NCBI GenBank assembly: GCA_016932115.1
Contig: JAFGDM010000078.1
Coordinates: forward strand, 1 to 37,180
Reading direction: 5' to 3'
Origin: Deltaproteobacteria bacterium
GTDB lineage: Bacteria; Desulfobacterota; DSM-4660; Desulfatiglandales; HGW-15
Length of the DNA: 37,180 bases
Below, one piece after another: positions 2,166-13,489 of this stretch. Below the pieces are notes generated by a model. That model saw nothing but the letters and a program-made list of their open reading frames with translations, was not told the DNA's origin and did not search any database. Each line of letters starts with the position of its first letter. Position 1 is the stretch's first letter. The translations under genes and the position numbers were made by a program.

Positions 2166-2599
2166 AGTGAGATCCTATTCAGTTCCAAACTATAAGTTGC
2201 CTGTCACCACATAAAATTTTACCGCTCTAAAAATGCTACGTCAAATCCGAATGCCAAGACGGCAAAGCGTTTATAAAAGTGCACAATAAGTGGGTACCAA
2301 TTGTCCAAGATGTGGTAAAGTAATTCACATATCCGATGGCAAAGGTGTTCACAGGATTGTATTTCAAGTCCTTTTATGTGATCTAAAACTTTGAAATTAC
2401 TTAAATAATATTGCATGATTGATACAGCACGGTCTTTGCAATTGTTGACGATCATGCCTTAACCTGTTTTCTTCAACCTCTTACAAGGGCGACAAAAAAA
2501 GCATGGAAAAGCCGGTAACCAAAAACATAGGCTTGGTTTCAAAGGGTTTCCCATTCAGGCAAGCCGGACGACCATCTTTTTTTGGGTCTTGAGCGAACC
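2166..2599. other. 434-nt intergenic region, AT-rich
   Basis: The region separates the divergent dacB and sensor-kinase genes. A 78-codon minus-strand frame (2219-2455) has an AGGTTAAGG upstream of its ATG, but its composition (many Cys, His, Leu, Tyr) and lack of any motif make it doubtful. GGCTTG and CAAGCC form a 6-bp inverted repeat about 24 nt apart near 2532-2566. I see no convincing promoter, RNA gene or mobile element. Confidence 0.4.
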
Positions 2600-4216
2600 A
2601 TGTCCTCGGCACAAATTCTCATTTTCGATTCCCCCGAATCCGCCCATCGCTTAAAAGCGATCCTAGACACCCGCGATTGGGAAATCCACACGCCCCAAAC
2701 CATCAAGGAAGCTTTGGAGCTTCTTAATACCTGCGACATCGATGTGGCACTCATCAACACAGAGTTGAAAGATACCGATGCATTTGCCGGTCTTGGTGAA
2801 CTGATTCGGCAGTGTCCGGACTTAAGGGTGATGGTGGTAGCTGAGTATTCGTCCCTTGATCGGGCCGTCGAGGCATTGAGACGGGGCGCCCACGGTTACG
2901 TGATTAAACCCTTTGCACGAGATGCTTTGTCAAAAAGCATTGAAGACGCCGTGGCGCAAAAGAGGTTGATAGTCAGCGAGCGCAAAAGGGCCGAATCGGA
3001 GCTGATGGAATTTAAGGATGAGCTTGACCGCTTGGTGCTTAAAAAAAGTTCTCACCTTATTGAGGTCAACGCGAAACTGCGAGAGGACCTGGAATCGCTT
3101 ATAACCGAAGGAGGCACCTTGCGTGCTCTCTTCGAAACATCCCAAGAGCCTATTTTTCTAAAAGATTTGAACCTTAAGTATATGATGGTCAATCCGGCCA
3201 TGGAACGTCTTCTCGAAACTAGTGAGCAAAATTGCGTGGGGAAAACCGACGGGGAACTTTTCGGGGAGGAAATCGGAAACTCGATCAGAAAATATGACAC
3301 CCGTGTTCTCCAAGGTGAAATCATTGAAAAAGAGCAAATCATTTTTATCAAAGGAGTCCCCACTACCCTACATTTCATGAAGGTCCCTTTGCGAGAAGGC
3401 TCTGGAGAGATAACAGGTCTCTGGGGAACAGTGCGTGATGTGACTGAGACAAAACGTGTGGAACAGTGGACTCATACAACCCAGCGGATGGAATCGGTCG
3501 CCACATTGGCAGCAGGAATCGCTCACAACTTCAACAATCTGCTAACAGGCATTCTTGGGACCGTGTCCTTGCTGCTAATGGATATAAACCCTGACGACGC
3601 AAAATACCGGAAACTAAAGAAAGTGGAAGAGTATGTCCGCAATGGGGTAGACCTTACCCGCCAGCTTCTAGGCTTTGCTAGAGGGGGTAAATACGAGGTG
3701 AAAATCCTTGATTTGAATGAGATTGCGGAGAAAACCACAGCCGTTTTTGCACAGTCACAAAAGCTGATTACGATTCACAAGAAAATGGAACCTAACCTAT
3801 ATCTTATCAAAGGGGACCAGAACCAGATCGAGCAGGTCTTGCTGAATCTCTACCTTAACGCAGGGCATGCAATGCCCGGAGGGGGAGATCTTTACATCGA
3901 TACAGAGAATGTTTTCCTTGATGAGGCTTACGTTCGACATTACACGGTTAAACCCGGACGGTATGTTCAGGTGAGAGTAAGGGATACGGGTTTAGGTATG
4001 AAACCTGAGACAATGGAACGTATTTTTGAGCCCTTTTTTACCACAAAGGAGGTAGGGGAAGGAAAAGGATTGGGGCTCGCCGCTGTTTACGGCATTGTGA
4101 AAAACCACGGAGGCTTTATCCAGGCCTTGAGCGAGAAAGGCTTAGGCACAACATTTGAGATCCTTTTCCCCGCCCTGGAAGAAGAAAAAGAAAAGGGAAA
4201 AAACGCCCTACCCTAA
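2600..4216 (+). CDS. PAS sensor histidine kinase with degenerate N-terminal receiver
   Basis: A 538-residue cytoplasmic kinase. Order: receiver-like domain (1-122), helical linker (122-165), PAS (about 168-290), HisKA with AAGIAHNFNNLL (His309), and a complete HATPase domain (N box NLYLNAGHAM, DTGLGM, FEPFFTTK, GKGLGL). The receiver keeps D10 and K103 (VIKPF), but the phosphoacceptor position is N53 (DVALINTEL), the second acidic residue is S11, and the switch Thr is A81. It therefore probably cannot be phosphorylated and may act as a protein-interaction domain. The kinase motif has N instead of the usual D after the histidine. ATG 2600 is preferred over the TTG at 2582, which lacks a ribosome site. 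It is followed by a kinase-like protein that has an intact receiver. Confidence 0.88.
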   Translation: MSSAQILIFDSPESAHRLKAILDTRDWEIHTPQTIKEALELLNTCDIDVALINTELKDTDAFAGLGELIRQCPDLRVMVVAEYSSLDRAVEALRRGAHGYVIKPFARDALSKSIEDAVAQKRLIVSERKRAESELMEFKDELDRLVLKKSSHLIEVNAKLREDLESLITEGGTLRALFETSQEPIFLKDLNLKYMMVNPAMERLLETSEQNCVGKTDGELFGEEIGNSIRKYDTRVLQGEIIEKEQIIFIKGVPTTLHFMKVPLREGSGEITGLWGTVRDVTETKRVEQWTHTTQRMESVATLAAGIAHNFNNLLTGILGTVSLLLMDINPDDAKYRKLKKVEEYVRNGVDLTRQLLGFARGGKYEVKILDLNEIAEKTTAVFAQSQKLITIHKKMEPNLYLIKGDQNQIEQVLLNLYLNAGHAMPGGGDLYIDTENVFLDEAYVRHYTVKPGRYVQVRVRDTGLGMKPETMERIFEPFFTTKEVGEGKGLGLAAVYGIVKNHGGFIQALSEKGLGTTFEILFPALEEEKEKGKNALP

Positions 4217-4235
4217 AATCATTATATTATAAATA

Positions 4236-4265
4236 TTGACATATAAATATAGTATAAAATAAAAT
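4236..4265 (+). promoter_or_regulatory. Sigma70-type promoter before the kinase-like gene
   Basis: TTGACA (4236-4241, perfect -35) and TAAAAT (4260-4265, 5 of 6) are 18 nt apart in a very AT-rich intergenic stretch. The next gene starts at 4343, giving a leader of about 70 nt. A gene-specific promoter here would uncouple this gene from the upstream kinase. Confidence 0.5.
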
Positions 4266-4342: not shown

Positions 4343-5611
4343 TTGAAAAGAAGGGTAGACAAGGAGGAACAGAGAATCTCCAACGCTGGAATGGATTTGG
4401 ATCCACGTAATCATTCGAGCATTGAGCGTAAACCTGTTGCTCCTCTATTATTTGAAAAAGCACGGATATGGGAATCTGCAGACTACAAAAGCGGGAACGG
4501 GGAAGCCTTGGCCGAACGGGCCAGCAAAATGCAAGCATTAGGGAACTTGGCCTGTGGCATCGCCCATGACTTTAACAATATCCTTACGCCTATCCTGCTC
4601 CGAACAGAAATGGCCATGGCCCAATTGGAACAAGACAGTCCCGTACAATACCACTTGGAACAAATCCTCACCTGCGGCCGGAGGGCAAGGGATCTTGTTC
4701 AACAAATCGCTACTTTCAGCCATCCAAAGGACGAAGACCGCGGCCCTTTGCAGCTCTCCCTTGTTGTAAAAGAGATCCTGAAGTTTTTGCGGTCTTCCAT
4801 GCCCGCAACCGTCGAGATCCGGCAGGATATTCGGGGGAACGGCTTTGTTCTCGCCGATCTGAGTCAGATTCATATGCTCCTGATGGAGCTTTGTGTTTGG
4901 CCCGGACAACCCATATCCGGAAGAAAGGGTTTACTGCAAGTGGAGCTCAGTGACATTGAACTTAACATTAAAGAACCTGCACCTCTTTCTTCTTTACCCA
5001 AGGGCGGCTATGTGAAGCTCAGTGTGAAGCGGGAAATACAGGATTTCCCGAAGAAGACAAGGGAGAAAACGGAAGGAGATCCGGATCTGTGTTTGATCGG
5101 CAGGGTTGTCGAGTTGCATGGCGGTAAGCTTGTGGTGGACAAGAAAATAAGTGGAAACACCGACTTTCACGTCTTCTTTCCCAGGATGAAAAGCAAGGCA
5201 CCCGCAAAAGGGACGGAAACCACATTGCTTTCCCGAGGATCGGAAAAGATCCTTCTTGTGGACGATGAGCAAGTCGTTGTGGAGGCTTTTAAACAGGTGC
5301 TCACCCATCTCGGGTACACAGTGGTTTCCACAACAAACAGTGCAGAAGCTTTAAAGATTTTTTGCAATGCACCGGACATGTTCGATGTCTTGATCACCGA
5401 TCAGACCATGCCGGTCTTAACCGGCCTCGAACTGGCCGCCGAAGTGAGACGGATCCGCCCTGAAATCCCCATTATTTTATGTTCCGGGTTTGGCGAAATC
5501 ATCCAAGGGGAAAACAATAAAAAGGCCGATTTAGGAACGCTTTTACGAAAACCATTCACAGCACATGACATTGCCCGTAGGGTCCGGGAGGTGCTAAACG
5601 GCAACGGGTGA
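4343..5611 (+). CDS. Kinase-like DHp protein lacking ATP-binding motifs, with C-terminal receiver
   Basis: A 422-residue protein built like a PAS-less hybrid kinase: HisKA/DHp with CGIAHDFNNIL (His75, Asp76), a HATPase-shaped region (about 155-290) and a receiver (about 305-422). The receiver looks functional (LLVDDE, LITDQTMP, CSGFG, LLRKPF). The ATPase region has lost every catalytic box: the N-box Asn residues are E182 and W186, the DxGxG aspartate is R230, and GxGLGL is replaced by GDPDLCL before the retained HGG. It probably cannot bind ATP normally and may be phosphorylated in trans or act as a phosphotransfer or docking protein. Start is TTG 4343 with GAAAGGG 9-15 nt upstream; the next in-frame ATG (4391) is poorly placed. 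There is no frameshift, so it is not simply decayed. Confidence 0.85.
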   Translation: MKRRVDKEEQRISNAGMDLDPRNHSSIERKPVAPLLFEKARIWESADYKSGNGEALAERASKMQALGNLACGIAHDFNNILTPILLRTEMAMAQLEQDSPVQYHLEQILTCGRRARDLVQQIATFSHPKDEDRGPLQLSLVVKEILKFLRSSMPATVEIRQDIRGNGFVLADLSQIHMLLMELCVWPGQPISGRKGLLQVELSDIELNIKEPAPLSSLPKGGYVKLSVKREIQDFPKKTREKTEGDPDLCLIGRVVELHGGKLVVDKKISGNTDFHVFFPRMKSKAPAKGTETTLLSRGSEKILLVDDEQVVVEAFKQVLTHLGYTVVSTTNSAEALKIFCNAPDMFDVLITDQTMPVLTGLELAAEVRRIRPEIPIILCSGFGEIIQGENNKKADLGTLLRKPFTAHDIARRVREVLNGNG

Positions 5612-5715: not shown

Positions 5716-6375
5716 CTAGATTAAGTCCTCTATAAAAGCTTCGACCACTTTGTCAGCCACCCCCTCGTAATTTATCCTGTAGGTTCCTGATTTGATTTTT
5801 TCTCTCATAAGCGCGACTTTTTCGCTTCTCACATGAGCAAAAGATGCCAGGAATTCTCTTACGACCTTCATTTCTTTTGCAGACCGTGACATTTTCCGTC
5901 TCCTACCTGTCTCTTCACAGATCACGAACTTTTCTTTGTTTTTTATCGCCTGATAGTCCTTTCTAGAAACGATGTTTACCGCGCTTTTTATGGTGACGGC
6001 TTTGAGCTTACGGGTTAGAAAATTAGAATTCTCAATCGACAAGGAGTGGAGGGCTTCTCCTTGCTCATCGATGACCTTAAAAAGAAGGCCTTCGCTTTTG
6101 TCGGGAGAAACGGCAAGGTTTTTACTATAGATTTTCTGAGACCCGGTGAGCAAGTCCTTTCCCGCTTCGTTAACCGAACCTTCCCGGATGATTTTATCGA
6201 GCACTCTAGCAGCCACCTTTTCTGTGAACGCTTCGCGACCGGCATCACCCGATATATCGCTCCGATACCCTTGCCGGTCAAGCGATTCGGCAGTTGGGTA
6301 CACCGCTTTACTTAGCCTGAGCCGGTCTCCGTAAACTTTCAAAACATTTTTCACTTGATAGGACGCAATAACCAT
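5716..6375 (-). CDS. flgM: FlgM-like anti-sigma-28 factor with long N-terminal extension
   Basis: A 219-residue protein whose last 37 residues match the FlgM sigma-28-binding tail: RSEKVALMREKI, then SGTYRINYEGVADKVVEAFI. FlgM holds FliA inactive until the hook-basal body is complete. Ordinary FlgM is about 100 residues; here about 180 residues precede the tail. Their start, MVIASYQVKNVLKVYG, resembles what I recall from deltaproteobacterial FlgM-like proteins, with a basic segment (GRRRKMSR) just before the tail. ATG 6375 has GAGGT 7-11 nt upstream; the longer frame from 6468 would run through the promoter. A FliA-like promoter lies immediately upstream, fitting sigma-28 feedback control. 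The likely partner is FliA (14745-15500). Confidence 0.75.
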   Translation of the reverse strand: MVIASYQVKNVLKVYGDRLRLSKAVYPTAESLDRQGYRSDISGDAGREAFTEKVAARVLDKIIREGSVNEAGKDLLTGSQKIYSKNLAVSPDKSEGLLFKVIDEQGEALHSLSIENSNFLTRKLKAVTIKSAVNIVSRKDYQAIKNKEKFVICEETGRRRKMSRSAKEMKVVREFLASFAHVRSEKVALMREKIKSGTYRINYEGVADKVVEAFIEDLI

Positions 6376-6393
6376 TTGTTTACCTCGGCATAT

Positions 6394-6421
6394 ATATCGG
6401 CACAAAAGTTTAGGAACTTTA
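6394..6421 (-). promoter_or_regulatory. FliA (sigma-28)-like promoter of the FlgM-like gene
   Basis: On the minus strand, TAAAGTT (-35, TAAA at 6418-6421) and GCCGATAT (-10, 6394-6401) are separated by 16 nt counted from TAAA. The enterobacterial consensus is TAAA-N15-GCCGATAA, so this is one nt wider with 7 of 8 matches in the -10. The ATG is only 18 nt downstream of the -10 element. Confidence 0.6.
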
Positions 6422-6450
6422 AAAAAAAGATTCCGAAACAATTTAGCTGT

Positions 6451-6700
6451 TTGAAAAATCGCAAGCATCAGGCATGGGGGTCTCTCTTAAAACTGAAAAA
6501 CGAAGAGTATTCAAGGTGGAGCATGAAAATACCAGGGGTAGCAAAGGCGGGCGGCGAGGCTTTACGGGAACTTCGAGGATTGACCTCTTTCGGCGATACC
6601 CCGGATGACCTCCGCCCGCCTCACCCGTTGCCTGAAGCATAACATAGCGATGTGGCTTCTTCGTTTTGCAGTTTTAAGAGAGACCCCCATGCTCGGGGCC
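6451..6700 (+). repeat. Dispersed inverted-end repeat, copy A
   Basis: Copy A begins TTGAAAAATCGCAAGCATCA at 6451 and matches the right-edge copy (37134 onward) and the minus-strand copy B (11767 downward). The A/B match runs through CTTCGAGGATTGAC at 6580-6593 and more weakly to about 6640. A 34-nt inverted repeat (6472-6505 and 6659-6692, one mismatch) makes a long stem around about 150 nt. A minus-strand frame across it (6443-6640) shares SILEV and RRPP runs with a frame in copy B. No transposase is present. It looks like a MITE-type or other non-autonomous repeat; edges are approximate. Confidence 0.7.
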
Positions 6701-6979: not shown

Positions 6980-8548
6980 ATGGAGAAACACATGGAACAA
7001 AAACTGAAGATTTTGGTCGTTGACGATGAAGAACCCATCCGGATGGTAATGAAGGAATTCCTTGAGCATGGCTCTCGCTACGAGGTTTTTACCGCCCACG
7101 ATGGATTCCAGGCTCTTCAAATTATCGCGAGGGAAAGAATCGATTGCTGTTTTACAGACATTTCCATGCCCCTGATGGACGGCCTGGAGTTGACTGGAAA
7201 GATTCAAGCGCTCGATAATACGATTCCAGTGGTGGTGATGACAGGCTATCCTTCTACCGATACGGCAATTACGACGCTTAAGAACGGAGTTGTTGATTTC
7301 CTGGTCAAACCTTTGAAAATGGACCAAATTGAAGCAGTCATTAAAAGATCAATTCGGGAGAGGGAGCTTTTTGTTGAGAATCTCCTGCTCAAAGAGGAGT
7401 TGAAGGGAAAGGAAAAAATCATCAGATTGAATCGGGACCTCAACGAGAAGATTAAGGAGCTTAAAACGGTAAACATCATTCTGCAGAGGCTGGATCGCCC
7501 CGCAGGGGGCAGAGAGCTTTTTGAGACCTTGGTCAAACTTTGCGGAGAAGTCACTTCATGTGATGAGGCCCATCTGTATCTTTTAAATCAGAACACGGAA
7601 GATCCGGCGGCAATCTCTTCTTTTTACGGCCAGGCGGGGGTCGCAAGTCGGGAAAGCCCCTTTGATCAAAAAGAGATCCTTACCCAAATTGCAAAGGACG
7701 GCATTCCAATCCTTATGAAAGGGAAGGATGGGAGGGGAACCCTCATTGCAGCGCCTCTCAAGATCCGCTCCAGCATTTTCGGAGCCCTAGTTCTAAATAC
7801 GATGAATGGTATGAAGGATCTAAAAGAAAGAGATTTATATTATGTTGATTTTCTCCTCGAAAAGGCTTCGACTTCCATTGAGAATTTTGCTCTTTATGAG
7901 AACCTGCACGAAAGTCTTTTTTCGACACTCTATGCTTTTGTGGAAACCCTTGAAGCCAGGGACGCTTACACAAAGCAACATTCCTCTCGCGTGACGGAGT
8001 ACGCAGAAACCGTTGCCAGGTTTATGGGGTGTTCGGATGAAGAGCTTGAAACCCTTCATGTGGCGGGCTACCTTCACGATATCGGAAAAATCGGCATTCC
8101 GGACTGCATTTTACTGAAACCGGGAAGACTCACGGAAGATGAATTTGAGTTCATCAAAAAGCACCCCGTGATCGGCAGTAATATTGTAGGGCATTTCAGC
8201 ATGTGGGCCAAGGAGAAGGAGGTGATCAAGCATCACCATGAAAGATGGGATGGCCATGGGTATCCCGACGGTTTGTGCAAAGAGGAGATTCCTTATTTAG
8301 CAAGGATTGTCTCAATTGCAGATTCCTATGATGCTCTTACCTCTGATCGATCATACCGGAAAAAAATGACGGGGGTGAAAGCTTTATCCATTATCAGAGA
8401 AAATGCCGGGGGACAATTCGATCCTGAAATCACAGCCGCATTTCTGCATCTTTTTGGCCTTGCCGGCACCGTCCAGGAAAAGACTCCCCATACTGAAGGG
8501 ACATTCTGCGGGGAGGTCTTGACAGATTCCGCTCAAACGCGCTCATAG
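6980..8548 (+). CDS. Response regulator with REC, GAF and HD-GYP domains (c-di-GMP phosphodiesterase)
   Basis: A 522-residue cytoplasmic protein predicted to hydrolyse cyclic di-GMP when its receiver is phosphorylated. Order: REC (about 8-125; VVDDEE, CCFTDISMP, VMTGYP, LVKPL), a coiled linker (about 130-165), a GAF-like domain (about 170-310) and HD-GYP (about 320-490). HD-GYP signatures are complete: HDIGK (366-370), KHHHERWDGHGYPDG (GYP at 427-429) and SIADSYDALTSDRSYR. Low c-di-GMP favours swimming, which fits the neighbouring FlgM-like, FlhG and FliA genes. ATG 6980 follows AAGAAGG; a second in-frame ATG four codons later is also possible. The GAF ligand is unknown. Confidence 0.92.
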   Translation: MEKHMEQKLKILVVDDEEPIRMVMKEFLEHGSRYEVFTAHDGFQALQIIARERIDCCFTDISMPLMDGLELTGKIQALDNTIPVVVMTGYPSTDTAITTLKNGVVDFLVKPLKMDQIEAVIKRSIRERELFVENLLLKEELKGKEKIIRLNRDLNEKIKELKTVNIILQRLDRPAGGRELFETLVKLCGEVTSCDEAHLYLLNQNTEDPAAISSFYGQAGVASRESPFDQKEILTQIAKDGIPILMKGKDGRGTLIAAPLKIRSSIFGALVLNTMNGMKDLKERDLYYVDFLLEKASTSIENFALYENLHESLFSTLYAFVETLEARDAYTKQHSSRVTEYAETVARFMGCSDEELETLHVAGYLHDIGKIGIPDCILLKPGRLTEDEFEFIKKHPVIGSNIVGHFSMWAKEKEVIKHHHERWDGHGYPDGLCKEEIPYLARIVSIADSYDALTSDRSYRKKMTGVKALSIIRENAGGQFDPEITAAFLHLFGLAGTVQEKTPHTEGTFCGEVLTDSAQTRS

Positions 8549-8599: not shown

Positions 8600-11260
8600 T
8601 CAAGACGGGCAGGGACAACCAGGATCGGTAGGATTACTATCGAGAATACCACGCACTTTTTTGGAAAGATCCGTGAGACCAAAAGGCTTCTGAATGAAAT
8701 CGTTACACCCTTTCCTCAAAATTTCCATTGCTTCGCCTTCTACACTATAACCGCTCGACAGCAAGGCTTTCACATCTGGATCTATCATCTTGAGCTTCTC
8801 ATAGAGCAATCCGCCCCCCATATCGGGCATCACCATATCCAGGATCGCCAAATCAATGCAGGTTTTGTTTTTAGAAAACAGCTCGATGGCCTCTTCACTG
8901 CTTTTTGTGGCAATCACGCGGTATCCTAGTTTTTCCAGCATCATTTGCGCCACCTTCAAAACACTTTCTTCATCATCCACTAGGAGAAGCGTTTCCGCTC
9001 CTCTGATCGGTTTGGCCGGGGCATGAGCCCTATAGCCTTCTCGGCTTTGAGAGAGTGGAAGATAAATAGAGAAGCAAGCGCCTGCTCCCTCCTTAGAGCT
9101 CGCATCAATATAACCGTTATGACACTTGACAATGCCGTATACGGACGCCAGACCCAGACCCGTGCCACGCCCCGGAGGCTTGGTTGTAAAAAAAGGATCG
9201 AAAATGCGGCTTATGGTTTTTTGGTCCATACCGCTTCCCGTATCCCTCACTTCGATCAATGCATAGTTGCCCGGCTCCATCTTGAAAGGTTTACCCCAAA
9301 GAGCCTGTTCCGTAACGTTCCGTGTAGTTACAAAGAGATTGCCTCCTTTGGGCATAGCATCGGCGGCGTTAATGAAAATATTCATGAGGACTTCTTCGAT
9401 CTGCGCGCGGTCCGCCATGATGTGTATTAAATCCGGAGACAAGTCGAGGTGAATCATGATCTCCTTCTTGGTTAACCCTAAGGTTTGCGAGGTCTCCTCG
9501 GTTAGGCGGTTGATATCTACAGGTCGGAATTCATGTTTTCCCCCGCGGGCGTAACCCAGAAGCTGACGGGTGAGTTTAGATCCGCTTTCAATCAGCTTTT
9601 CTACGAGATTAAGCCGATCGGCATGCGGGTTTTTCGGCTCCATGTCGAGAAGCATCAGAGAAACATTGCCCTGAATGGCCATTAGGAGGTTGTTGAAGTT
9701 GTGTGCGATACCGCCGGCTAGTGTTCCGATAGCTTCCATTTTTTGTGCGTGCATGAGTTGAGCTTCCAGCTTTTTCTGGAGTGTCACGTCCTTAAAAAGA
9801 TGGAGAAAGGCGGGAGCACTTTCCCAAATGACAGGCACTACATTCACCTCAAGCCAAATTTCTTCTCCCCTTTTGTTCATGAGCCGCAGGGTCGTGTTCT
9901 GCTCTGTTTTAGGAACTTTGTGTTCGTGGAACGCTTGAATGATAGAGATGTCTTCAGGGTGGAAGAGTTCCGTCAATCCCATTGCCGTGAGTTCCTCAGC
10001 GGAATATCCTGAAATCTCCAAAGCCTTTGGATTTGGGAACTTGATGACGTCGTCCTGCTCGATGAATATCCCTTCGCTTGCATTATCCACCAAGAGACGG
10101 TACCTCTCTTCGGATTTCCTCAGCGCTTCCTCGGCCTGCCGACGTTCCGTGATATCATGTACAATGACAGTGGCACCACATGGCATGCCGTTTTCGTATT
10201 TGTATCGTGTGTAAAGAACAACCCAGAACTCTCTTTCGTTTTTCCCTTTGATCCTGTATTCCACGGCTTCGGGGACTTTTTCGCCTGCAAAAACTTTGCT
10301 CAATCTTTCGATAAACCGTTCGCGACTTTCTTCTGATAAGATGTCCAGGGGGCTCAGGGATAGCAATTCTTCTCTCGTGTAGCCCGTGTATTCACACATG
10401 ACTTCATTGACGGTGATGAATTTACGCCTTAGAAAATCGACTTCAAAAATGCCTGCCGGAGCATGTCTGACAAGATGACGAAATTTGTTTTCACTTTCTT
10501 CGAGAGCTATGTCGTTCTTTTTCTTTTCGCTGATATCCCGCACGACGCCACAAAACCCTGTGGGGTTGCCTTCCGGGTTTCTCATGAGAGATGCTGATAT
10601 GGAGAAGAAACATGTTCCGCCGTCTTTCCGGATGATTTCATAATCAGTCGCCTCTGCGGAACGACCTGTCAGGTAAACCTGGTTGAAGATGCGGTACATT
10701 CTCTCCGCCGTTTCCGGCTTGGTGTACTGCCTATTGCTCATGCCCAGGAGTTCTTCTCTTGAATACCCGGTTATTCTGCACAGAGAATCATTGCAAAAAG
10801 TCATGTTTCCTGCAATATCCACCTCAAAATAGCCTTCATCAATGTTCTGCAGGATGTTTCGATAGTTTTCCTTCTTCTCTTCGATGGCTCGATCTATCTC
10901 TTGCATATGAGAAATGTCGGTGAGGCAAACGATGATATTGCTCCTTTTCGGGAGAAAAGTGATTTTGATGAGCACATGTTTGACCTCTCCTGTTCGACAG
11001 ATGAGTTGGCCCTCACAGGATCGAACGGTTTGGCACAAATTCGGGGTCTCCGGCAGGAAAGTGGGACAACGTTCTGCGGCATTCACAAAATAATCCCACA
11101 GGATTTTCCCCCTTAGCTCTTCTTGGGAATATCCTGTAAGTTCTATTGCCTCATCGTTCATCATTGCTATTTCTGAGGCCCGTTCCAAAACGATGATGGC
11201 TGCCCCCACGTGATCAAAGAGGCTGCGATAGATGCCTTCGGTTTCTGAGAAATCATGCAT
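8600..11260 (-). CDS. Multi-PAS hybrid histidine kinase with C-terminal receiver
   Basis: An 886-residue soluble hybrid kinase. Four PAS repeats occupy about 5-500, each ending in a DIT/DIS-type motif (CLTDISH, GVVRDISEKK, VIVHDITERR, HLFKDVTLQK). Then come HisKA with AGGIAHNFNNLL, a full HATPase domain (NIFINAADAMP, DTGSGM, FDPFFTTKP, GTGLGLASVYGIVK) and a receiver (LLVDDEE, AILDMVMPD, LSSGYS, IQKPF). It has no membrane segment, so the signal is cytoplasmic (redox, gas or small ligand cannot be told apart). The histidine is followed by N, as in the 2600-4216 kinase; the shared LTRQLLG(F/Y)ARGGK run marks them as paralogs. ATG 11260 is preferred over TTG 11278; neither has a strong ribosome site. 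Confidence 0.9.
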   Translation of the reverse strand: MHDFSETEGIYRSLFDHVGAAIIVLERASEIAMMNDEAIELTGYSQEELRGKILWDYFVNAAERCPTFLPETPNLCQTVRSCEGQLICRTGEVKHVLIKITFLPKRSNIIVCLTDISHMQEIDRAIEEKKENYRNILQNIDEGYFEVDIAGNMTFCNDSLCRITGYSREELLGMSNRQYTKPETAERMYRIFNQVYLTGRSAEATDYEIIRKDGGTCFFSISASLMRNPEGNPTGFCGVVRDISEKKKNDIALEESENKFRHLVRHAPAGIFEVDFLRRKFITVNEVMCEYTGYTREELLSLSPLDILSEESRERFIERLSKVFAGEKVPEAVEYRIKGKNEREFWVVLYTRYKYENGMPCGATVIVHDITERRQAEEALRKSEERYRLLVDNASEGIFIEQDDVIKFPNPKALEISGYSAEELTAMGLTELFHPEDISIIQAFHEHKVPKTEQNTTLRLMNKRGEEIWLEVNVVPVIWESAPAFLHLFKDVTLQKKLEAQLMHAQKMEAIGTLAGGIAHNFNNLLMAIQGNVSLMLLDMEPKNPHADRLNLVEKLIESGSKLTRQLLGYARGGKHEFRPVDINRLTEETSQTLGLTKKEIMIHLDLSPDLIHIMADRAQIEEVLMNIFINAADAMPKGGNLFVTTRNVTEQALWGKPFKMEPGNYALIEVRDTGSGMDQKTISRIFDPFFTTKPPGRGTGLGLASVYGIVKCHNGYIDASSKEGAGACFSIYLPLSQSREGYRAHAPAKPIRGAETLLLVDDEESVLKVAQMMLEKLGYRVIATKSSEEAIELFSKNKTCIDLAILDMVMPDMGGGLLYEKLKMIDPDVKALLSSGYSVEGEAMEILRKGCNDFIQKPFGLTDLSKKVRGILDSNPTDPGCPCPS

Positions 11261-12106
11261 AGTGAGCGCTTCGGTCAAAGCTGTTTGATAAAAGATTAAG
11301 CCTTAAAGATCATTGCTTTTCGTCACCCGGCCTTCCGGCCTGAGAACCGCCGTTGAAACTTAGGCTCCGGCGGGATTTCAGCATATTGAAAAAATACACA
11401 AGCATGAGGCATGGGGCTATCAGGCTTGAATTTCACAAAGCTTGAATCTCGCATGACTGGACAATTTTGCAAGTATCATGCCGCAATTGTGTTTTTCCTT
11501 CATTTACATAGTGGTCTTAAAATGGTACCACTTGCATTCCCTTTTAGAACGCTGCCGAACCCGCACCACCCCCTGTTCAGCTTTGGGCGACAGGTGCCCC
11601 GGAGCTCGTCCGTGTAAGGGCTACAGGGAGTCAATCCTCGAAGTCCATGTGAAATCTCGACGGCCGCCTTCGTTACCCCCCCGGTATTTTTATGCTCTCC
11701 CCCCTATTCTTTTCGTTTTGCAATATTGAAAGAGACCCCGGCGCCTGATGCTTACGTTTTTTCAAAAACTTGAAACGGTAGCACGAAGTTTTAACAACGA
11801 TAAAAACAAGAATGTCAAAAAGCTGACGTTTCTTGATGAAAATCCGGTCACCTGCGCCGGCTCAGATGCTTCTCGGCCTGCAGTGTTGACAGCCTCATCT
11901 GCGGTGGGCCATAATGCATCACTTCAGGTGATGGTTGATTTTAGGATCTCCAATAGAAATCCGGGCTCACCCCCAGTGGTGCCGGGTTCAAAGCCGTAAT
12001 TCACGGCACAGAAAAAACTCTTCATCTGGAGGATGATTTTACATTTTATTTTGCTGTTTATAAGAGGGGTAACCTTTAAAATGTCTCAGAATCGGAAGGG
12101 CGGAGT
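11261..12106. other. 846-nt intergenic region containing repeat copy B
   Basis: Most of 11386-11767 is dispersed-repeat copy B. The remainder has two simple hairpins (CATCAC/GTGATG near 11917-11935; GTGCCG/CGGCAC near 11980-12010) and no convincing gene. The frames at 11411-11999 look like readings of the repeat and its flank rather than genes. No clear promoter for the downstream sigma54 activator was found. Confidence 0.5.
11386..11767 (-). repeat. Dispersed inverted-end repeat, copy B
   Basis: The ends are imperfect inverted repeats of about 30 nt: left TTGAAAAAATACACAAGCAT (11386 onward) and, on the minus strand, TTGAAAAAACGTAAGCATCA (11767 downward). The segment about 11767 to 11625 read on the minus strand matches copy A for about 145 nt, including GCATRAAAATACC and CTTCGAGGATTGAC. 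The part about 11417-11600 is unique to this copy. There is no transposase gene. Boundaries are approximate and no target-site duplication was identified. Confidence 0.65.
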
Positions 12107-13489
12107 ATGGCAAGCATCCTGGTGATTGATGACGATCGTGAGCATTTGAGTGCCGTCGCAGATATCTTGACAAAGACCGGTTATGAGGTGAAAGCCACAG
12201 ACGATGGAGAAACGGGGCTCAAGGAGATTGAAGAGAATGATTATGATCTCATTCTTACGGATCTGATGATGCCGAAGGTAGACGGCCTCGACATCCTAAG
12301 ACAGGCGATCGCAGTTTCTCCGAAGAGCAAATGTATCATTCTAACAGGTTACGGTACGATCAGGGGGTCTGTGGAAGCCATGAAGAAGGGGGCTTTCGAC
12401 TATATCACCAAGCCTATGACTTCTAACGAACTGCTTCCGACTGTCGAAAAAGCCTTACAGTTCAAACACCTCGAAGAAGAAAACCTGAGACTTAAAAGAG
12501 AGCTTAGGAAGAGGTACCGGGAGAGCTACATCATCGGGACTAGCGAAGGGATGAAGAGACTCTACCACTTTATAGAGAAGGTGGCGGACACCGATTGTAC
12601 GGTCCTCATCACCGGAGGGAGCGGCACAGGCAAGGAACTCATTGCCCGTGCCATTCATTATGACAGCCATCGCAGGGATAAACCGATGGTGACCATCAAT
12701 TGCGGCGCTATCCCCACGGAACTTCTCGAAAGTGAGCTCTTCGGCCATGAAAAAGGAGCTTTCACAGGCGCTCACAAAAGAAGGATCGGACGCTTTGAGA
12801 TGGCTGACGGAGGCACAATTTTTCTGGATGAAGTGGGAGAAATGAGTCCTGCTCTCCAGGTCAAGTTGCTGCGAGTTCTCCAGGAACAAACTTTCGAAAG
12901 GGTCGGCGGAACCCATACCATCCACGTAGATGTTAGAATCATCGCTGCAACCAATAAGAACCTTTCCCAGGCTATAAATAATGAAAAATTTCGGGAAGAT
13001 CTCTACTACCGCTTGAACGTGATTCCGATAAAAGTGCCGTCCCTGAAGCAAAGAAAGGAGGATATTCCCCTGCTAATTACTTTTTTTCTAAACAAGTTTC
13101 AAAGGGGAAAAGAAAAGAGGGACCTTGGTTTTTCTCCGCAAGCCTTAGAGGCCTTGTTGGAATACGACTGGCCCGGGAATGTAAGGGAACTTGAGAATTT
13201 TATAAAGCGAATGATCATTCTCTGCGACAACGACGTGATCGAGCTTTCAGACCTCCCCGAACACCTCCAATATCGTTCTTCGACAATCCGTGAACCCGAT
13301 GTAGAAACGCCCGAACAGGGAAGAACCTTGAATGACGCTGTGCGGGACTATGAGAAAAGGCTGATCCTGGAAGCGTTGGAGAAAAGCCGGGGGGTCAAGG
13401 CCAAGGCCGCAAAACTACTGAACATAAAAAGAACAACCCTCATAGAGAAAATGAAAAAGCAGAATCTCACCGGTAATGTTTCGGGGTAG
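12107..13489 (+). CDS. NtrC-family sigma54-dependent response regulator (FlrC-like)
   Basis: A 460-residue transcription activator that remodels sigma54 RNA polymerase. Order: receiver (about 3-120; IDDD, phosphoacceptor D52 in ILTDLMMP, T80, K102), AAA+ domain (about 140-375; Walker A GGSGTGKE at 170-177, GAFTGA sigma54-contact loop at 217-222, Walker B IFLDE near 238-242), and a Fis-type HTH at the C terminus (KAKAAKLLNIKRTTLIEKMKK). All key residues are intact. The ATG follows GGAAGGGCGGAG. The HTH sequence and position resemble FlrC/FleR-type flagellar regulators, and a perfect sigma54 promoter precedes flhG just downstream. The cognate kinase could be either complete kinase in this block. 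FlrC is a best guess; other NtrC subfamilies are possible. Confidence 0.9.
   Translation: MASILVIDDDREHLSAVADILTKTGYEVKATDDGETGLKEIEENDYDLILTDLMMPKVDGLDILRQAIAVSPKSKCIILTGYGTIRGSVEAMKKGAFDYITKPMTSNELLPTVEKALQFKHLEEENLRLKRELRKRYRESYIIGTSEGMKRLYHFIEKVADTDCTVLITGGSGTGKELIARAIHYDSHRRDKPMVTINCGAIPTELLESELFGHEKGAFTGAHKRRIGRFEMADGGTIFLDEVGEMSPALQVKLLRVLQEQTFERVGGTHTIHVDVRIIAATNKNLSQAINNEKFREDLYYRLNVIPIKVPSLKQRKEDIPLLITFFLNKFQRGKEKRDLGFSPQALEALLEYDWPGNVRELENFIKRMIILCDNDVIELSDLPEHLQYRSSTIREPDVETPEQGRTLNDAVRDYEKRLILEALEKSRGVKAKAAKLLNIKRTTLIEKMKKQNLTGNVSG

Follow-up and report, generated by a model that had tools for sequence, protein, structure and literature searches.

The gene at positions 4343..5611 on the plus strand of the window, that is, of the whole 37,180-nucleotide stretch of deltaproteobacterial DNA analysed here, encodes a protein that, as judged from its sequence, is composed of a HisKA domain, a degenerate HATPase, and a receiver, is sensorless and presumably soluble, and is best read as a pseudokinase of the RetS/ChpT/PhyT-like class. 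We tentatively propose, with somewhat less than even confidence, that this protein serves a motility and c-di-GMP signalling cluster as a His-Asp phosphotransfer adaptor that does not depend on ATP. The reading frame had been described as uninterrupted, and it is indeed open throughout, yielding from a TTG start a pseudo-hybrid histidine kinase of 422 amino acids, which open reading frame and domain calls divide into a low-confidence N-terminus (residues 1–52), a HisKA/DHp segment (53–127), a degenerate HATPase-like region (approximately 134–284), and a receiver (302–418). Pfam recognizes HisKA at residues 66–127 (E = 3.4e-7) and a single receiver, Response_reg, at residues 303–414 (E = 1.3e-20); it detects no sensor domain, and no HATPase_c match is returned even when positions 4748–5233 are scanned separately at E ≤ 10. 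The AlphaFold2 model of the protein has a mean pLDDT of 78 overall.

The preliminary description had reported the simultaneous loss of the N, D, and G2 boxes (E182, W186, R230, and GDPDLCL), and alignment against 51–55 relatives bears this out. The N box (4886..4900, plus strand) is destroyed by the changes N182>E and N186>W, the G1 box (5030..5053, plus strand) by D230>R, T231>E, G232>I, and G234>D, and the G2 box (5075..5095, plus strand) reads GDPDLCL instead of G(T)GxGL, with the changes G247>P and G248>D. Alignment with the intact hybrid kinases of the order also shows that the F-box/ATP-lid segment, comprising 11 residues (xRIF(D/E)PYFTT), has been deleted in frame after residue 237, a loss additional to those listed in the first reading. 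Among 133 full-length kinase cores, drawn from all the loci fetched and including some loci represented by overlapping copies, N186, D230, and G248 are missing in this protein alone, while N182 is kept by all but one of the sampled relatives; the comparison uses these four columns of the profile alignment, in which the G1 glycines and the first G2 glycine are misregistered. A sequencing error or frameshift as the origin of the lost boxes was considered and rejected, because the core residues on either side keep their register and the deleted stretch preserves the frame. Taken against the features expected of a functional hybrid kinase, the protein has the phospho-accepting histidine as well as the paired aspartates, phospho-accepting aspartate, and lysine of the receiver, and it lacks the N, G1, F, and G2 boxes; it is accordingly classed here as a protein predicted to be without a plausible ATP site.

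The sites of phosphate chemistry itself are preserved, as had been claimed for His75/Asp76 and for the receiver. The HDxxN motif (4565..4579, plus strand; H75, D76, F77, N78, and N79) is intact, with H75 as the phospho-acceptor and with D76 and N79 retained in the alignment; in HisKA proteins, the acidic residue of this motif is required for kinase activity and the asparagine for phosphatase activity (PMC3510030). The receiver (5246..5596, plus strand) is likewise complete, with D307, D308, the phospho-acceptor D353, S381, and K403 all in place. Its fourth strand reads ILCSGF and resembles the FxSGY motif described for CckA-type intermediary (relay) receivers (PMC9981736), a resemblance that the ordinary relatives of the protein also carry. 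Since the ATP site is predicted to be absent while His75 and the receiver are intact, any phosphate on this protein would have to come in trans, and to that extent the phosphorylation in trans that was suggested earlier is upheld.

The loss of the ATP site could mark either a protein that has been put to a new use or a gene on its way to extinction, namely a truncated hybrid kinase that is becoming a pseudogene and is currently functionless. We assessed decay by per-domain branch lengths and by counts of conserved positions, defined as those conserved at ≥90% in 51 relatives. The protein has the longest terminal branch among all relatives in each of its three domains, with the ATPase region being the most extreme, and this, together with the loss of the sensor and the empty ortholog searches in the family, order, class, and phylum sample, speaks for decay. 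Against it, the gene has neither a stop nor a frameshift, the deletion is in frame, and the losses are concentrated where ATP would bind: the protein keeps 35 of the 38 conserved positions of the receiver (92%, equal to the lowest relatives), 20 of the 25 in the DHp, and only 15 of the 38 in the ATPase region, whereas the 51 relatives keep at least 82% in every one of these regions. The losses in the ATPase region fall mainly at ATP-site positions, and the structural residues G196, G221, V228, L249, G261, F275, and P280 remain. In the AlphaFold2 model, this region adopts a kinase-like alpha/beta fold, with most of the core at a pLDDT of 80–94 and values of about 60 near the lost lid, and a fold search of the PDB with the model retrieves structures of ShkA, CckA, ZraS, LvrB, and RetS, those of CckA and ShkA ranking near the top; the whole-chain TM-scores are low, probably because the domain orientations differ. 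An odd base composition was also considered and rejected, the codon-position GC of the gene being normal and similar to that of the neighboring genes. In a rough neutral simulation limited to point mutations, an ATPase region free of stops is obtained with p~0.09 after 50 missense changes and 0.03 after 80. With the frame open, the fold modelled, and the receiver largely kept, the evidence runs contrary to decay, which we regard as improbable, and we infer that the ATPase loss represents repurposing.

The origin of the gene does not appear to be local. No ortholog emerged when the 17 genomes of the family, the 85 of the order, and a sample of 395 genomes from the phylum were searched at the protein level; a search of the class with the ATPase region by itself (the same 85 genomes) returned intact kinases and no ortholog; and a pattern-based scan of the genome contigs matched unrelated receivers only. 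The genus of the host consists of a single genome. The best relatives are ordinary hybrid kinases with approximately 36–46% identity, in which the diagnostic boxes are intact wherever the sequence was checked, and as these nearest homologs belong to another clade, the gene does not appear to descend from the local hybrid kinase.

Two kinases with intact ATPase regions lie nearby and are possible partners. The upstream kinase (2582..4216, plus strand) combines an N-terminal receiver, a PAS domain, HisKA, and an intact HATPase; its N-terminal receiver is a pseudo-receiver, with asparagine at the phospho-Asp position (INTEL), and the protein ends before any C-terminal receiver. The second is a multi-PAS hybrid kinase (8600..11278, minus strand) with intact boxes. 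In both, the motif around the catalytic histidine is HNFNN rather than H(D/E)FNN (3524–3538 and 9691–9703, respectively). Asparagine next to this histidine occurs in 7 of the 133 sampled domains, a figure that includes some double counting, and in several HisKA kinases autokinase activity depends on an acidic residue at this place, whereas phosphatase activity does not (PMC3510030), so that the substitution might weaken the autokinase activity of both flanking kinases.

These observations bring in a further mechanism, in which the upstream kinase and the pseudokinase form a heterodimer, the ATPase of the former phosphorylates His75 of the latter, and the phosphate then moves to D353 or to a regulator. 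The defects of the two are complementary, such that a heterodimer could form one working kinase: the upstream kinase has an ATPase but carries asparagine after the histidine and a dead receiver, and the pseudokinase lacks the ATPase and retains the HD pair together with a live receiver. The dependence of autokinase activity on the acidic residue and the adjacency of the two genes on the same strand point in the same direction. However, kinases with asparagine after the histidine are also found in other genomes (L075, L079, and L082), with no known partner of this kind, and a third such kinase is encoded in the host's own genome (L006, HNFRN), which suggests that the asparagine may be tolerated, and the two proteins share just 23% identity across the core, which makes heterodimers uncertain. 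We consider this mechanism quite unlikely. The transcription of the two genes may be linked or separate. A promoter of its own had been assigned to the pseudokinase gene, and a promoter-like TTGACA-18-TAAAAT element with 11 of 12 consensus matches is indeed present at 4236..4265 (plus strand), 77 bases ahead of the TTG start; it is plausible but falls short of proof, being a consensus match of a quality reached by 1.3% of sequences of the same composition. No terminator was seen between the upstream kinase gene and this element, and cotranscription of the two genes is possible.

Downstream, the cluster takes on a flagellar character. A FlgM-like gene (5716..6468, minus strand) encodes 250 amino acids, longer than a typical FlgM, with a weak N-terminal match to the DVU0524 family, both NCBIfam matches being barely under their cut-offs. 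It is followed by an HD-GYP response regulator (6980..8548, plus strand), a predicted c-di-GMP phosphodiesterase and possible output partner, whose orthologs occur in ten genomes of the order at 57–59% identity. The ortholog loci lie beside a small response regulator and mostly with flaG, fliS, and fliD, which makes the HD-GYP protein probably a flagellar regulator, although here it stands apart from those genes. An alternative output is offered by an NtrC-type sigma-54 regulator (12107..13489, plus strand) located just upstream of the MinD/FlhG-like and FliA-like sigma-factor genes that also belong to the cluster. Near the start of the window, positions 178–756 encode a PocR sensory domain (PF10114) that stands alone in a protein of 192 amino acids.

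The case for a relay comes from what the genome lacks and from how a related locus is built. No match to the Hpt domain (PF01627) was found in the 95%-complete host genome (G000), although this genome encodes several hybrid kinases, and the positive controls of the search were detected; Hpt domains are present in 15 of the 17 genomes of the family set, with 1–11 in each. The 5% of the host genome that the assembly lacks might still contain an Hpt. In G006, which belongs to the same family, genes for a REC-PAS-kinase-REC protein, an Hpt of 115 aa, and an HD-GYP regulator 57% identical to ours stand side by side, FlgM lying approximately 12 kb from them, and the upstream kinase of our window aligns with the G006 kinase end to end at 35%, stopping before the C-terminal receiver. 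Both the missing Hpt and the layout of the G006 locus are the grounds on which we favour the relay role. In the relay, one of the neighboring kinases with an intact ATPase (2582–4216 or 8600–11278) would phosphorylate Asp353 of the pseudokinase, the phosphate would then pass from Asp353 to His75 on the dimeric DHp, and His75 would finally hand it on to the receiver domain of the HD-GYP regulator (6980–8548), with one chain substituting for the C-terminal receiver and the Hpt of the comparable G006 locus. Every one of these steps, with its direction and partners, is one that we infer. The preliminary description had the phosphate going to the protein's own receiver or to the NtrC-type regulator; on the strength of the G006 locus, the HD-GYP receiver is preferred instead. 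A more specific form of the proposal, namely that one soluble chain has fused an intermediary receiver to a kinase-derived His phosphotransferase, replaces a C-terminal receiver plus Hpt, and is possibly paired with the neighboring kinase of complementary defect, we consider unlikely. Degenerate kinases that work as phosphotransferases, ChpT (PMC3433190) and PhyT (PMC5898713), provide precedents for the relay. Against it, an Hpt lies directly beside the HD-GYP gene in one relative only (G006); in G073 a related Hpt is found approximately 6 kb from the HD-GYP gene, and tblastn detects none at the remaining HD-GYP ortholog loci, so that most orthologous loci are without one. That the searches yielded no ortholog sharing the lost boxes, and that the nearest homologs are ordinary kinases of another clade, also counts against it.

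The main rival to the relay is a RetS-like attenuator, in which the receiver drains phosphate from a neighboring kinase, the DHp, through N79, is a transmitter phosphatase on the receiver of the partner, possibly with a block by heterodimer formation, and no phosphate is relayed onward. RetS of Pseudomonas aeruginosa takes up phosphate from its partner kinase and dephosphorylates the receiver of that partner, and all three mechanisms have been demonstrated for it (PMC5992135). The likeness is considerable, for RetS has the same domain core in the same order (HisKA, a HATPase without G boxes, and a C-terminal receiver), cannot autophosphorylate, and belongs to a motility-governing network (PMC5992135); the H+4 residue, on which HisKA phosphatase activity depends (PMC3510030), is kept in both proteins, and structures of the RetS kinase region are among the fold matches. 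RetS, however, has a periplasmic/membrane sensor and two receivers, whereas the protein described here is short and sensorless with one receiver, its F-box/lid is deleted, and it is set in a flagellar-regulator cluster; nor does an attenuator explain the lack of a detectable Hpt in the genome. We hold this mechanism to be rather unlikely, and prefer the relay. Few hybrid kinases are known in which the ATP site is erased and the His and Asp sites are intact, RetS being the main studied case, and a short, sensorless form in a genome without a detectable Hpt would offer a simple system in which onward relay, phosphate drain, and heterodimer phosphorylation can be set against one another, and which also bears on how a kinase becomes a phosphotransferase.

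That degenerate kinases serve as phosphotransferases or attenuators is already known from ChpT, PhyT, RetS, DivL, and ChrS; what sets this protein apart is a sensorless architecture, a single receiver, a deleted lid, a flagellar-regulator setting, and a genome with no detectable Hpt. DivL carries a tyrosine at the phospho-site, and to our knowledge neither DivL nor ChrS has a receiver. The two resemble our protein as kinase-derived regulators independent of their own catalysis, although DivL senses a response regulator (PMC4211667) and the evolved pseudokinase ChrS arose through a frameshift in the laboratory (PMC9491836). The dimeric histidine phosphotransferases ChpT and Spo0B combine a DHp histidine with a kinase-like fold incapable of using ATP, as is predicted here, and in ChpT the ATP lid is replaced, whereas in our protein it is deleted (PMC3433190); they are without a receiver, while our protein joins DHp and receiver and has CckA-like hybrid kinases as its nearest relatives. 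PhyT (formerly PhyP) of Sphingomonas melonis shares the degenerate ATPase and conserved histidine, and phosphate transfer between two receivers has been shown for it, but it is membrane-bound, with an HRxxN-type DHp and no receiver described (PMC5898713). The core of CckA has the same DHp-CA-receiver order and a similar receiver motif, and among solved structures it is the closest to the DHp in sequence (5idj); CckA differs in being ATP-binding and bifunctional, and our protein scores 128 and 127 bits with the NCBIfam CckA models NF046026 and NF046020, far under the cut-off of 1000 bits for a CckA equivalog.
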